Source: Halovenus carboxidivorans (GTDB taxonomy: Archaea; Halobacteriota; Halobacteria; Halobacteriales; Haloarculaceae). Taken from it: DNA of 64,000 bases. Numbering within the stretch: the first letter of the stretch is position 1; the number at the start of each line of letters is the position of its first letter. Positions 16,316 through 50,978 of the stretch are shown here, one piece after another. The notes beneath the pieces are model-generated. The model was not told where the DNA came from, searched no databases, and worked only from the letters and a program-made list of their open reading frames with translations. Both the position numbers and the translations under genes were made by a program. Location: NCBI RefSeq assembly GCF_009831575.1, contig NZ_WUUT01000007.1, positions 62,001 to 126,000 on the forward strand, written 5' to 3'.

Positions 16316-18234
16316 GTCACGACGTACTCACACCGAAGGGACTCTCGCTGCGGTACCACACTGCGAGACGCATGGAGGCGCGTCAACTCGCCGGCATCGC
16401 AGAGCGGACAGTTCGGGCGGTTCTCGCGCCACGAGTGCCGGTCGATTTCGACGGCATCTACGACCGCCGCGTTCCGGACGACCCGCAGGCTCGGCCCCGG
16501 CCGCTGGCCGAGAATACGGCAACGCTCCGCACGAGTCTCGACGAGACGACCCGGAGCCGGTATCAGGAACGCGCCGAGGATGCGGCGGGCGGCACGTTCA
16601 CTTTTCTCAATCGGACGCTCCATCTCGCGGACGGCGACGGCGTTGCCTGGACGGACGGCCGACTCGACCGACTTCCACTGCTGTGGGCGCTGAAGCTCTA
16701 CGCGTTTCAGCCGTTACAGTGGCTCTGTGCGAGCACCGACCCGGAGAGCGAGCGGGCGCCGGCGCTTCGGGAACGCTTCGACGAGTGTGTCCGCGACTGG
16801 ATCGGAGCGGTCGAGGTCGGGTCGGCCGGATATCTCCGCGGCGCTTGGACGCCGTGGGCGGTCTCGCTGCGGATTCTCAACCTGAGTCGGTATCTCGCCT
16901 GGCGAAGCAGCGACGAGACCAGCAGTGGGGGCGTCGGGCGCGAACTCAGGCGGGAGATATACAAGAATGCACTCTTTCTGCGGAACCACATCGAGCGCGA
17001 TGTCGGCGGGAACCACCTGATCGAAAACGGGGCGGCGCTGGTGGTCGCCGGTGTCCTCTTCGAGCACAGGGGGTGGCGCGAGACCGGCCAGGCGGTGCTC
17101 ACGGAGGCGGCGGACAAGCAGTTTCTCGACGACGGCTACCACTTCGAGCGAAGCCCGATGTACCACGTCATCGTCCTGACCCGGTATCTGACGGCCTGTC
17201 ACCTGCTCAGAGTGGGCGGTTACTCGGTCCCGTCGGGACTGCGTACGACCGCACGGGACGGGGTCGAATTCCTCCGGTTTCTCCGCCCGCCGGACCGCGG
17301 TTTGCCGCTGTTGAACGACTCCGTCCACGGTGAGGGGCTTCCACTGGGAGACTGTCTGCGATACGGAACAGCGGTCGGCTTCGAGACCGACGCCGAGCAG
17401 TGGGAACCGCCGACAAACGAGGCGACGCCGGAGACCACGTCCGGCTATCACTGGCTCCGTACGGGGGCGGGCGCGATGTTGATCGACGGCGGGGCCGTCG
17501 GCCCGGCACACCTGCCGGGGCACTCACACAGTGACACGCTGAGTCTGCTGCTGTGGATCGACGACCAGCCGGTAGCCACCGACACCGGTACCTTCGGGTA
17601 CGTCGACGACTGCCGCCGCGATTACGCGCGCAGCGCACGCGGTCACAACACCGTCACCGTCGGCTCCGACGAACCGATCGCTGTCGGCGGCACGTACCTC
17701 ATGGGCCCTCGACCGACGCCGGAGACCCGCTTCGACGCAGACGGCGTGACGCAGTTCGCGGGGCGGTACCGAGCGCTCCCGCATCGAGGGAATGCGTATA
17801 CACACGAACGCAACGTATACGCAGACGACGACTGGTGGCTGTTGACCGATCGCGTCGACGACTCCGGCGACAGGACACTCCGGGGGCGGATACACCTCCA
17901 TCCGGGCATCGAGCCGTCCATCGAGTCAAGCGGGCGGGTCCGGCTGCCGCTCGAAGACGGCGGGCGGGCGTTCGTCCTGCCGGACGAGCGGACGGACATC
18001 GGAGTGACGACGGGGCCGTACTTTCCGCGGTTCGGGGAGTGCAGACAGCGAGCGGTGCTGGAGCTGACCCCGACGGGTCCGAACGACAGGGGGGAGCGGT
18101 TGCGGGCGCTGTTCACGAAGCGAGATGTCGACCCAGAGTCGATCGACGTGACCGACACACGCGACGGTCCGAGACGACTCGTGATCGGTGAACAGGGCTA
18201 CGACCTCCCCGAACCGGGGCTGTCGCGTCGGTGA
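16312..18234 (+). CDS. Heparinase II/III-like protein
   Basis: A 640-residue protein with the two-part layout of polysaccharide lyase families 12/15/21: an alpha-toroid (residues about 60-350, with RDVGGNHLIENGAALVVAG near 225 and the catalytic-type Tyr/His segment FERSPMYHVIVLTRY near 278) and a C-terminal beta-sandwich (from about 385, with LPGHSHSDTLSLLLWIDDQP near 400 and ARGHNTVTVG near 440). It should cleave or edit uronate-containing polymer, in line with WecC and AglM supplying uronic acids. No signal peptide is seen, which is odd for an exported lyase. It overlaps the GT4 gene by ATGA. Confidence 0.85.
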   Translation: MSHDVLTPKGLSLRYHTARRMEARQLAGIAERTVRAVLAPRVPVDFDGIYDRRVPDDPQARPRPLAENTATLRTSLDETTRSRYQERAEDAAGGTFTFLNRTLHLADGDGVAWTDGRLDRLPLLWALKLYAFQPLQWLCASTDPESERAPALRERFDECVRDWIGAVEVGSAGYLRGAWTPWAVSLRILNLSRYLAWRSSDETSSGGVGRELRREIYKNALFLRNHIERDVGGNHLIENGAALVVAGVLFEHRGWRETGQAVLTEAADKQFLDDGYHFERSPMYHVIVLTRYLTACHLLRVGGYSVPSGLRTTARDGVEFLRFLRPPDRGLPLLNDSVHGEGLPLGDCLRYGTAVGFETDAEQWEPPTNEATPETTSGYHWLRTGAGAMLIDGGAVGPAHLPGHSHSDTLSLLLWIDDQPVATDTGTFGYVDDCRRDYARSARGHNTVTVGSDEPIAVGGTYLMGPRPTPETRFDADGVTQFAGRYRALPHRGNAYTHERNVYADDDWWLLTDRVDDSGDRTLRGRIHLHPGIEPSIESSGRVRLPLEDGGRAFVLPDERTDIGVTTGPYFPRFGECRQRAVLELTPTGPNDRGERLRALFTKRDVDPESIDVTDTRDGPRRLVIGEQGYDLPEPGLSRR

Positions 18235-48348: not shown

Positions 48349-48602
48349 TGGCTCCCCGGTGATACCGTACACTGGGGAAGGAACACACTATACTATTTTG
48401 TGTCACAAACAGAATTTCACGGGACTCGTCACACGACGGAGAGCCGGTCCAGCGTGGCTGTTACAGCGGTAGCGAGGCGAAAGCCCACGACTTCAGTCGT
48501 GGGATGAAGCCGACAACTGGGAATCTAACCACGCTCGTAGCCACGGCTGGGGGTTGGATACTTACATAACATCTTTAGGTGAAAAGTTTCTATATACTGA
48601 CG
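48349..48602. other. Kinase promoter side and left end of the IS element
   Basis: The first part holds the AT-rich kinase promoter (reverse strand, AAAATAGTATA near 48389-48399). From about 48465 the sequence belongs to the IS left end. A TATA-like CATAACATCT (near 48566-48575) is centred about 33 nt before the tnpA ATG at 48603. Confidence 0.5.
48484..48503 (+). repeat. IS left-end hairpin
   Basis: Perfect 8-bp stem CCCACGAC/GTCGTGGG with loop TTCA, similar in size and sequence to the right-end hairpin; the probable TnpA recognition structure. Confidence 0.75.
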
Positions 48603-49043
48603 ATGCCTCGTGGGTTCGATCGGGAACGTACCAACGTCCACAAACTCCGGTACCACTTCATCTGGTGTCCGAAGTCAAGCAAAGCGTAGCTTTGCGTACC
48701 TCGCGGGATCTTCGATCCCGCTCAGTACCGCAAATCGGTACTTGAGGACGAGGTACGCGACCGTCTCGAAGAACTCATCGAGGAGAAAGCCGGCGAACTC
48801 GACTTGGAGATACTGGCGTTGGCGATTCGCCCCGACCACGTACACCTGTTCATCACGGGCGACCCGACACTCGCTCCAAACAAAATAATGCAACAGGTCA
48901 AGGGCTACTCCTCGCGCCACCTCCGCGACGAGTTCGACTTCGGCCTCCCCTCGCTGTGGACACGCTCGTACTTTGTCTCAGGTGCAGGCGACGTATCCAG
49001 CGAAGTCATCGAGGAGTACATCGACGCCCAAGCAGGTGAGTAG
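48603..49043 (+). pseudogene. tnpA: tnpA, Y1 transposase interrupted by a 51-nt in-frame insert with stop
   Basis: Codons 1-24 (MPRGFDRERTNVHKLRYHFI...) and the stretch from 48726 onward (YRKSVLEDEVRDRLEELIEE...) are the two parts of one Y1 transposase of about 129 residues. They are separated by 51 nt (48675-48725) that keep the frame but include TAG at 48687-48689. The catalytic HUH motif is DHVHLFIT and the nucleophile Tyr lies in VIEEYIDAQ; both are intact. Unless the insert is bypassed, spliced out or read through, the protein is truncated after 28 residues. Translation could restart at ATG 48804, but that product lacks the first strands. Confidence 0.8.
48675..48725 (+). repeat. 51-nt double-hairpin insert within tnpA
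   Basis: Contains two perfect hairpins: GCAAAGC-GTA-GCTTTGC (48679-48695) and GCGGGATC-TTC-GATCCCGC (48703-48721). It interrupts tnpA between the Lys codon AAG and the Tyr codon TAC of the family motif CPKYRKS. Length is a multiple of three; a possible 3-nt duplication AGT flanks it. It looks like a discrete palindromic micro-element. Confidence 0.7.
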
Positions 49044-49045
49044 TC

Positions 49046-50200
49046 ATGCAACGGAACGTCTCAACCACGGTGCGGGTCAAAGTCCACTCGCTGACCAACA
49101 GGAAAGCCGACCTGCTCGCTCGTGAGTACGAGGCGTTCCAGACCGAGGTACACGGCGGAAACGCCAACCTCTACTCTGCGACCGACCAGCAGGCGTCGAA
49201 AGTCCAGCGACAGAAAGACCCGAACGAAGACACCGAACAGCCTGTCGTTCTCCGCAACGACGTGTTCGACGTAGTCCGCGACGAAGACACCGTTCTTTCC
49301 TCGTGGTGGGTAAAAATCCCCGTCTACGACCCCGAACGTGGACGGGGTAACTCCATCTGGTGCCCCGCCCACGTTCCGCACAAGGACGAAACCCTCGTCC
49401 GTGGTGGGGATATTCGGGACAGCGAGTTGGTGCGCCGTGACGGTGACTGGTACGTGCATCTCGTCGTCAAGCGGTCTGTGACCGTCCAAGACGAGTACGA
49501 CGACGTGCTGGCCATCGACATGGGCGCACGGTGGGTTGCAACCTGTGCGTTCCTCTCCGACCGCAAGACGACCTTCTACGGCGAGGAAGTGCGCCAAATC
49601 CGCGAACACTACAAACAACTCCGCAAGTCCATCGGGAAGGCAAAACCCCGGCAGGGACAACAGGTAGTTGAGCGCGTCGGTGACGCGGAGGCACGGAAGG
49701 TGGACGACCGCCTCCACAAGATTGCTCGGCAAGTTGTGGAAGACGCTGAAGAACGGAACGCGGTCATCGTCGTGGGCGACCTCGGCGGTATCCGCAAGGA
49801 CAACGACAAAGGGCGATACGTCAACGATAAGACCCACAAGATGCCGTTCGCCCGCCTACTCAACTATATTGAGTACAAAGCCCACGACGCTGGCGTCGAC
49901 GTGCAGCTGGTCGAAGAATACGATACGTCGAAGACGTGCAACCGCTGTGGATGTGAGGGCGTCCGTGAAGCGCAGGGGCGGTTCGAGTGTCCTGAATGTG
50001 GGCTGGACGACAATGCGGACAAAAACGGTGCGTTGAATATCGGTAAACGAGCCTTGGGCAAGTTCTCGAAACCGCTGTCTGAGGCGGGGGCCGTACTGGC
50101 ACGGCCCGAAACGCAGGTCATCGTCCAACGTGACGACGAACCTGCGAACCTCTCCGTATCCGTGGGTTCAACCCCCAGTGGGGGAACCCCACGGCTTTAG
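49046..50200 (+). CDS. tnpB: TnpB, RNA-guided endonuclease of the IS element
   Basis: A 384-residue TnpB. The N-terminal domain is followed by RuvC-I VLAIDMGARWVATCAF (Asp) near residue 155, RuvC-II VIVVGDLGGIRKDND near 240, a zinc finger TCNRCGCEGVREAQGRFECP (CxxC...CxxC) near 300 and RuvC-III DDNADKNGALNIGKRAL (Asp) near 325. In RuvC-II the usual Glu-Asp pair (E-D-L) reads Gly-Asp, so the catalytic Glu is either replaced or supplied elsewhere. The stop TAG lies in the loop of the right-end hairpin. The last 40 residues, after the RuvC-III block, probably overlap the guide-RNA gene. Confidence 0.87.
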   Translation: MQRNVSTTVRVKVHSLTNRKADLLAREYEAFQTEVHGGNANLYSATDQQASKVQRQKDPNEDTEQPVVLRNDVFDVVRDEDTVLSSWWVKIPVYDPERGRGNSIWCPAHVPHKDETLVRGGDIRDSELVRRDGDWYVHLVVKRSVTVQDEYDDVLAIDMGARWVATCAFLSDRKTTFYGEEVRQIREHYKQLRKSIGKAKPRQGQQVVERVGDAEARKVDDRLHKIARQVVEDAEERNAVIVVGDLGGIRKDNDKGRYVNDKTHKMPFARLLNYIEYKAHDAGVDVQLVEEYDTSKTCNRCGCEGVREAQGRFECPECGLDDNADKNGALNIGKRALGKFSKPLSEAGAVLARPETQVIVQRDDEPANLSVSVGSTPSGGTPRL

Positions 50201-50210
50201 CCGTGGGAGG
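50060..50210 (+). ncRNA. Probable omega/reRNA of TnpB (approximate limits)
   Basis: By analogy to characterised TnpB systems, the guide RNA covers the 3' end of tnpB and the right end of the element. Here that stretch contains hairpins at 50172-50184 (CCCCC-AGT-GGGGG) and 50188-50207, and the guide would read into flanking DNA from about 50213. Limits are inferred. Confidence 0.4.
50188..50207 (+). repeat. IS right-end hairpin
   Basis: Perfect 8-bp stem CCCACGGC/GCCGTGGG, loop TTTA, containing the tnpB stop codon. Pairs with the left-end hairpin in layout. Confidence 0.75.
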
Positions 50211-50213
50211 ATG

Positions 50214-50978
50214 TCAGCGACCGATTGTGCCCTGTCGCGTGACCGGAGCGTCGGGATTGATCGAGAACGCGACAACAGTGGACTCCTCCGCTGCCGTGAC
50301 GGAGACGTCGCTGTCGGCGGTCACGACCGCGCTCTCGGTGTGGCCCAGCGAGTCCTCACCGAGTTCGACTGCCCCCTCGAAGACGTAGCAGTAGGTGTCC
50401 CAGCCGGATCGGGACGGGAGCGTGGTCGTCGCGCCGGCGTCGAGCCGGCAGTCGTAGAAGTGAACGTCGTTATGGACGAAAAGCGGCGCATCGCTGCCTT
50501 CGGGACCGAAGAGATGTCGCCACTCGTTGGGGGTCGCGTCGGGGATCGGTTCGTGCTGGATGCCCGGCTCCAGATCGAGGCTGTGCGGCCGGACGAAGAT
50601 CTGGAGCATCCGCAACGGCGGGTCCTCGGCGAGGGTCTCCTCCGCGTGCCAGAAGCCGCTGCCGGCGTTCATCACCATGAGGTGGTCGGGATCGGTCACC
50701 AGGTTGTTTCCCTGGCGGTCGTCGTGACGCATCACGCCCTCCGGAACCCACGAGATGATCTCCTCGTTGCGGTGTTGGTGCATCCGGATCAGCGTGCCGG
50801 GATCCATGAACGACTCCACGACGGTCGCGAGCGGGCCGTAGCCGTGGTCGTCGTGGTCCGGGACCGCCCGACCGGGGAAGTTGAAGTGGGTTCTGAACTT
50901 CCCCTGGTTCTGGGAGACATCTGTGCGAGGGGCCGTGTGAATCTGTGGGTGAGCGCGGGCGGGAGACGAATCAGTCAT
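50214..50978 (-). CDS. Pirin-family protein
   Basis: A 254-residue bicupin. The N-terminal cupin has FNFPGRAVPDHDDHGYGPLA, MHQHRNEEIISWVPEGVMRH (metal His/Glu) near residue 65, and MNAGSGFWHAEE near 102, the pirin signature. Members act as quercetin-2,3-dioxygenase-like oxidoreductases or redox sensors. The ATG at 50978 is 26 nt from a TATA-like box (CCATATACTC on the reverse strand, near 51000-51010). The IS right end abuts its stop codon, so the last residues (QGTIGR) may have been altered by the insertion. Confidence 0.85.
   Translation of the reverse strand: MTDSSPARAHPQIHTAPRTDVSQNQGKFRTHFNFPGRAVPDHDDHGYGPLATVVESFMDPGTLIRMHQHRNEEIISWVPEGVMRHDDRQGNNLVTDPDHLMVMNAGSGFWHAEETLAEDPPLRMLQIFVRPHSLDLEPGIQHEPIPDATPNEWRHLFGPEGSDAPLFVHNDVHFYDCRLDAGATTTLPSRSGWDTYCYVFEGAVELGEDSLGHTESAVVTADSDVSVTAAEESTVVAFSINPDAPVTRQGTIGR

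Follow-up and report, generated by a model that had tools for sequence, protein, structure and literature searches.

The locus analysed here poses the question of how a 51-nt segment folding into two hairpins came to lie inside the transposase gene tnpA of an IS200/IS605 element, and whether it acts as DNA or as RNA. The window, a stretch of 64,000 nucleotides from Halovenus carboxidivorans, contains the host element with a Y1/HUH transposase gene, a TnpB gene and subterminal hairpins (Table 1). The insert probably belongs to a family of very small (45-54 nt) mobile elements, each built of two perfect triloop-capped hairpins and found mainly on haloarchaeal IS200/IS605 elements, where "mainly" describes the loci read, because the locus sample was biased towards IS200/IS605. 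These are referred to below as double-hairpin elements (DHEs). The 3' part of tnpA matched Pfam Y1_Tnp (E 3.1e-29) and NCBIfam transpos_IS200, and with the insert set aside the reading frame of the remainder is open, as had been predicted of an otherwise intact gene. An Rfam match to HgcC that fell below the cut-off (50086-50230), where an omega RNA would be expected, overlaps the end of tnpB and the right-end hairpin; circular omega RNAs of Halobacterium are described as lacking bulge-helix-bulge (BHB) motifs in the portion of the source cited (PMC12558985).

Table 1. Features of the interrupted element, in window coordinates.
Feature	Position	Strand	Detail
Left-end hairpin of host IS200/IS605	48484..48503	+	CCCACGACT-TC-AGTCGTGGG; sequence, inverted repeat I10
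tnpA (Y1/HUH transposase), insert-interrupted	48603..49043 (stop included)	+	5' part 48603-48674, 3' part 48726-49043
Double-hairpin element, 51 nt	48675..48725	+	leader TCAA, hairpin 1, linker GTACCTC, hairpin 2, tail TCAG
Hairpin 1	48679..48695	+	GCAAAGC-GTA-GCTTTGC, perfect 7 bp, GNA triloop, C-G closing pair
In-frame TAG	48687..48689	+	spans part of the loop and the 3' arm of hairpin 1; other copies do not conserve it
Hairpin 2	48703..48721	+	GCGGGATC-TTC-GATCCCGC, perfect 8 bp, TNC triloop, C-G closing pair
tnpB (RNA-guided nuclease gene), same element as tnpA	49046..50200	+	NCBIfam guided_TnpB E 3.4e-44; Pfam Cas12f1-like_TNB
Right-end hairpin of host element	50188..50207	+	CCCACGGC-TTTA-GCCGTGGG; sequence

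The presence of a 51-nt double hairpin with an in-frame TAG inside tnpA was confirmed by comparison with natural relatives that lack the insert, one of which (L215; 91.4% identity around the site) aligned with a single 51-nt gap exactly there, and by folding and shuffling. Folded as DNA, the insert reached -15.5 kcal/mol against -5.8 ± 1.8 kcal/mol for 200 shuffles (z = -5.4). Comparable double hairpins in the 64-kb window comprised the insert, once, a G+C-rich pair, and a pair formed by hairpin 2 with a neighbouring tnpA hairpin; 10 dinucleotide-shuffled versions of the window contained none. The 51-nt insert is genuine, has exact boundaries and far exceeds chance expectation. It follows codon 24 of tnpA (AAG, 48672-48674), between the codons for WCPK and those for YRK. 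Because AGT stands on both edges, the exact cut is ambiguous by 3 nt; the original prediction had placed the insert correctly and left this ambiguity unshown. The G+C-rich pair, two perfect hairpins 1 nt apart at 17484-17519, does not belong to the insert's family. The linker region (48694-48703) is perfectly complementary over 10 nt to tnpA at 48749-48758, 45 nt downstream. This pairing was set aside as a working structure, its downstream partner being different in other tnpA clades with the same linker (seen, uncounted).

Recurrence at this junction, designated site 2, was examined in 391 genomes of the haloarchaeal class by fixing the tnpA flanks alone in the search pattern, with 34-60 free bases allowed between them. 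Filled junctions were found at 28 places in 26 of the 391 genomes (21 of 86 genera), and all 28 inserts so recovered are double hairpins of one kind lying between the codons for WCPK and YR in one orientation, 51 nt long in 23 and 49 nt in 5, with the exact 51-mer of the window present in 6 of the 26 genomes. The empty junction was present at 178 places in 127 of the 391 genomes (table entries summed by hand). Among 54 distinct loci recovered by searching genome contigs at the protein level, 8 carry the insert, and these add a further sequence type (TCTCGCAGG...TTAG) in L040, L047 and L049. Matches to tnpA were listed for 12 plasmid records. The exact core had no match among viral contigs, and the leader/linker/tail pattern was found in 0 of 226 genomes of the same phylum outside the class; in our samples, the DHE family is confined to haloarchaea. 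An ordinary pseudogene, produced by chance insertion into a decaying transposase, would agree with the broken conceptual frame in the window and with the in-frame stop in 12 of 22 distinct inserts, but the same insert stands at the same junction in all 26 genomes, its stems covary and filled copies show no excess decay. Since the insert recurs, this account is refuted as a full explanation and retains next to no probability.

Gain and loss were assessed from 176 parsed tnpA sites (39 filled and 137 empty, identical ones merged), of which 170 were entered as tnpA 3' halves into a tree. Filled copies lie in all major clades beside empty ones, and at least 26 changes are needed at site 2, a number that is approximate because many branches of the tree are weakly supported. 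The clearest pair is L107 and L224, from two genomes of one genus. Their main blocks are 98-99% identical, but TGGTG is followed in L107 by a double hairpin of 45 nt and CCGAAG by one of 49 nt, and L224 lacks both. A double hairpin of 54 nt at a third site in tnpA distinguishes L173 from L177, and the 49-nt insert distinguishes L049 from L024. Filled and near-identical empty copies are thus interleaved on the tree, which means that the insert has often been gained or lost and rules out old vertical inheritance. The identical 51-mer also occurs in tnpAs whose 3' halves are 60-81% identical; L001 and L003 share it although these halves are 60% identical and the tnpB genes are arranged differently. 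Together with the sister-pair differences, this shows that the insert moves independently of its host gene.

The effect on the reading frame varies among copies. The 22 distinct site-2 inserts comprise 14 of 51 nt and 8 of 49 nt, the latter length shifting the frame; 4 are in frame and open, 12 have an in-frame stop and the other 6 are frame-shifting, with the first stop at insert codon 5, 11 or 17, or none within the insert. Preservation of the frame, which had been stressed in the original prediction, therefore holds for the 51-mer of the window and is not conserved (8 of 22 distinct inserts are 49 nt). Stop read-through, one of the three readings first offered, is unsupported on the same counts, as the stops lie at varied places or are missing and 8 of the 22 shift the frame. 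An in-frame peptide linker at site 2 was likewise ruled out, with only 4 of 22 in frame and open, despite open inserts elsewhere (three site-3 copies and two tnpB inserts). Rickettsia palindromic elements are in-frame peptide linkers.

Ribosome bypass or programmed recoding, in which ribosomes would skip the insert as in T4 gene 60 and the mitochondrial byps so that TnpA is made, was weighed against the codons at the two edges. In T4 gene 60 a stop codon directly follows the take-off codon. The take-off and landing triplets of the 39 site-2 copies are AAG/CAG in 19, AAG/TAG in 15, AAA/TAG in 4 and AAA/CAG in 1; they match in 0 of 39, which extends to every copy the mismatch (AAG versus CAG) already pointed out for the window. 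The landing triplet in the AAG copies does share two of three bases with the take-off codon, which speaks for bypass, as do the intact and constrained remainder of tnpA in filled copies, a frame-shifted filled IS present in two near-identical copies in one genome (G185), and TGT on both sides of the insert at tnpA site 1. Some mitochondrial byps tolerate imperfect take-off/landing matches, according to the part of the source cited (PMC5009743). On the other side, the triplets differ in all 39 copies, the stop stands apart from the take-off codon and some inserts lack one altogether, relatives of the insert are found antisense to tnpB or in non-genic positions, and recent gain and loss accounts for the intact flanks unaided. 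With no copy having matching take-off and landing codons, and with both length and stop variable, bypass was dropped as the leading reading, and we regard it as very improbable.

Selective constraint on tnpA was compared between filled and empty copies. A filter for intact genes kept 133 tnpAs (26 filled, 107 empty), and the pN/pS set, with a slightly wider length limit, contained 26 filled pairs and 100 empty ones that fell within the distance limits. pN/pS was 0.145 for filled copies and 0.128 for their nearest empty ones, with overlapping 95% intervals, so that no relaxed constraint was detected in filled tnpAs. This is expected if insertion was very recent, and also if TnpA is still made. 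Differences within two filled sister pairs are mostly synonymous, 16 synonymous to 2 nonsynonymous in L044/L045 and 12 to 5 in L073/L081; tnpA would have to work with the insert in place if the members of each pair inherited a single old insertion. L107 and L155, with two inserts each, have a higher ratio (21.5 synonymous and 21.5 nonsynonymous differences), which fits decay. The doubled IS of G185 (L084/L086; 99.8% identical over 1920 nt) carries a frame-shifting 49-nt tnpA insert in each copy, as expected if TnpA comes from other copies. In the window, the insert likely killed tnpA. An archaeal counterpart of the mitochondrial byps, a site-specific homing hairpin entering transposase genes and rendered harmless at expression through ribosome skipping or RNA removal, is improbable; were it true, TnpA would still be made and the IS would keep moving with the insert aboard.

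Removal at the RNA level was evaluated as an intron excised by the archaeal tRNA-splicing endonuclease at a BHB, or by another RNA activity. The archaeal BHB consists of a 4-bp helix between two 3-nt bulges at the junctions. A length untied to the frame (49 or 51 nt) and intact flanks would suit an intron. Canonical BHB geometry with a 4-bp central helix was found in 0 of 39 copies, however, and the best BHB pairing averaged 6.3 of 10, below random placements in the same loci (6.6); the triloops, moreover, are of the DNA-stable type. An RNA intron is thus extremely improbable, and the joint reading of RNA removal or ribosome bypass in the original prediction is unsupported in view of the 49-nt inserts (8 of 22), the differing triplets and the lack of a BHB.

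The hairpins themselves point to DNA as the acting form. Only 13 of 546 stem cells are unpaired in 38 distinct window-family elements, with two or more standard pair types at most stem positions, and the loops vary within a narrow set. A C-G closing pair is present in 136 of 136 distinct DHE hairpins versus 124 of 256 single triloop hairpins from the same DNA, and GNA loops or their complement TNC in 82 of 136 (60%) versus 39 of 256. GNA triloops with G-C pairs form extraordinarily stable, nuclease-resistant DNA mini-hairpins in the work of Hirao and co-workers, as given in the portion of the source cited (PMC4686876). From loops of this ultra-stable type we infer that single-stranded DNA is the acting form and that DHEs act as DNA, not RNA. 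DHE loop pairs such as TTC/GAA and TCC/GGA are reverse complements, as if loops had been flipped between copies.

A wider search of the 391 class genomes with a family pattern of leader, linker and tail gave 54 places in 43 genomes (reversed control, 0). Assigned to sites by sequence type, with flanks read for most of them, these were tnpA inserts (30), site B (21), site C (2) and elsewhere (1). Site B adjoins the right end of tnpB and is antisense to it by orientation as read, and L196 shows it naturally empty; no Pfam or NCBIfam family was matched by the gene at site C. When all loci were scanned for two perfect triloop-capped stems of at least 7 bp each, 115 distinct double hairpins were obtained; they fall into many families, and some of them lie within or close to IS ends. 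Two (L026:3971-4014 and L113:1501-1555) lie within tnpB with the frame open, adding 17-18 residues near the C-terminal end. Repeats at the element edges were AGT, TGT or AG, with none at tnpA site 3. The 464 kb of the window's own genome, window included, contained the window element as sole clear double hairpin, and two further G+C-rich hairpin pairs that may be chance.

Further arrangements were observed among these loci. At tnpA site 1, a 45-nt double hairpin with TGT on both edges is present in L147, L155, L087 and L107, and take-off and landing codons (TGT) would match there. At tnpA site 3, after YEILS, a 54-nt double hairpin (L078, L079, L241, L171, L173, L194 and others) mostly has TGA in its linker and is fully open in L078, L079 and L241. 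One genome, G164, has arrays of up to about 10 perfect triloop hairpins (L281:9128-9407, L281:10802-10943, L287:17818-18067 and L294:7455-7561), several of which flank or sit inside tnpB genes.

Occurrence at the same tnpA site had been proposed as a sign of bypass and occurrence at unrelated sites as a sign of mobility; both kinds of site were found, and since both occur the test cannot discriminate. The prediction of a mobile palindromic micro-element is nevertheless supported: the insert recurs across many genomes, at a single site in tnpA as well as at a few others on IS200/IS605 elements, and sister copies exist that are nearly identical but empty. Homing by recombination only, with the insert unable to transpose by itself and spread through gene conversion among tnpA copies that have the conserved WCPKYR codons in common, is a possible though rather unlikely explanation of this distribution. 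It would account for the strong fidelity to one junction and one orientation, for the conserved flank (TGGTGYCC.AAR/TAYMG, the slash marking the junction) and for the two-insert form, found in two tnpA clades (L147, L155), in which 9 nt (TGTCCGAAG) separate the 45-nt site-1 element from the 49/51-nt insert downstream of it, as though the two had travelled together. Flank exchange and co-conversion are described for yeast G+C clusters in the part of the source cited (PMC4478555). Against recombination alone stand the identical insert in tnpAs with 60% identical flanks, between which ordinary homologous recombination would hardly work, and the family members at sites unrelated to the tnpA junction (right-end site B, site C and G360).

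The best reading is that the DHE is a mobile, site-preferring DNA micro-element that usually interrupts tnpA and probably moves via single-stranded DNA. Its mobility is supported by the same junction in divergent tnpAs, gain and loss, compensatory stem changes and relatives at other transposon sites. Transposition of IS200/IS605 elements passes through single-stranded DNA, and DHEs would enter exposed single strands. A Y1/HUH transposase acting in trans might join the hairpin-bearing single strand, or a short single strand bearing the hairpins and about 12 + 5 nt of conserved flank might anneal. The usual effect would be interruption of tnpA by frameshift or stop, and the interrupted IS would then depend on TnpA from uninterrupted copies. 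Ultra-stable C-GNA-G DNA hairpins combined with single-stranded transposition make single-strand entry the most likely route. The orientation of the insert follows the target sequence and not the IS strand, as tnpA and tnpB run in the same direction in the window and in opposite directions in L003. CCGAAGTAC occurs 9 times in the 464-kb sample of the own genome, and only the tnpA occurrence was found filled, no other insert of this family turning up in that genome. The target preference of DHEs is far stricter than would be expected of a Y1 transposase with a target of 4-5 nt, which weighs against the reading. Insertion into the loops of pre-existing hairpins was considered as well. Among random positions, 12-54% had stems at least as good as the best stems of 4-6 bp around the sites of empty copies; empty sites do not lie in hairpin loops with any consistency, and a simple loop-targeting rule finds no support.

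If this reading is right, DHEs are among the smallest mobile DNA elements described, spread across a whole archaeal class and with a strikingly strict target inside other transposons. Ultra-stable mini-hairpins on single-stranded transposons would then offer a testable system for the movement and spread of hairpins of about 50 nt, which have yet to be explained for yeast mitochondrial G+C clusters, double-hairpin elements and the SMRs of Haloquadratum. DHEs may also be a natural brake on IS200/IS605 elements.

No description of such tnpA inserts was found in the open-access literature searched (subscription journals and ISfinder were outside its scope), and known systems were compared by features. 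Mitochondrial double-hairpin elements, reportedly described in work on Allomyces, and G+C clusters share with DHEs short perfect hairpins with tiny loops, presence/absence polymorphism and a short flanking repeat. The yeast G+C clusters resemble them further in AG-type flanking repeats, array merging and loop-concentrated variation in the passages cited (PMC4478555). Both mitochondrial classes are organellar, mostly intergenic and untied to one host gene, whereas DHEs are archaeal and ride on IS200/IS605. REP/REPIN sequences, mobilised by RAYTs, are likewise short palindromes, occur as dimers and sometimes inside genes, and are linked to a Y1 transposase, but as described in the portion cited they are tagged with GTAG or CGTC at the foot of the stem and are dispersed in many copies (PMC3733652). 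The window family has TCAA/GTACCTC/TYAG and one copy here, and some other DHE families carry CGTC beside a stem. T4 gene 60 and the Magnusiomyces byps also have about 50 nt with hairpins interrupting a gene; as far as the cited part of the source goes, DHEs differ from them in having no matched take-off and landing codons (0 of 39) and no take-off-adjacent stop, and in having relatives antisense to or outside genes (PMC5009743).

Two further counterparts are haloarchaeal. Terminal-only PATEs (52 bp, derived from IS605-type elements) are similar in size (about 50 bp), palindromic and possibly mobilised, but in the sections cited consist of the two near-terminal palindromes of their parent fused, whereas DHEs consist of two different hairpins (PMC3119063); a parent IS with DHE-like ends was not noticed in an unsystematic look among the loci read. 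The SMR-A repeats of Haloquadratum walsbyi (Dyall-Smith et al. 2011, PMC3119063) are transposase-free repeats of about 110 bp that attack IS605-type transposons and PATEs with no target duplication; in the part cited, their mobilisation is termed enigmatic and they are proposed to inactivate IS605 elements. DHEs likewise target IS605-type elements, with sites in tnpA, tnpB and the end regions. SMR-A have, in the same account, prominent terminal inverted repeats and enter near-terminal palindromes, mostly outside ORFs (PMC3119063), whereas DHEs are 45-54 nt with two independent hairpins and TCAA/TYAG ends that are not inverted repeats, occupy fixed tnpA codons and occur class-wide. By this description DHEs are set apart from the known SMR-A: they are half the size, differently built, and lie within coding sequence at fixed codons.
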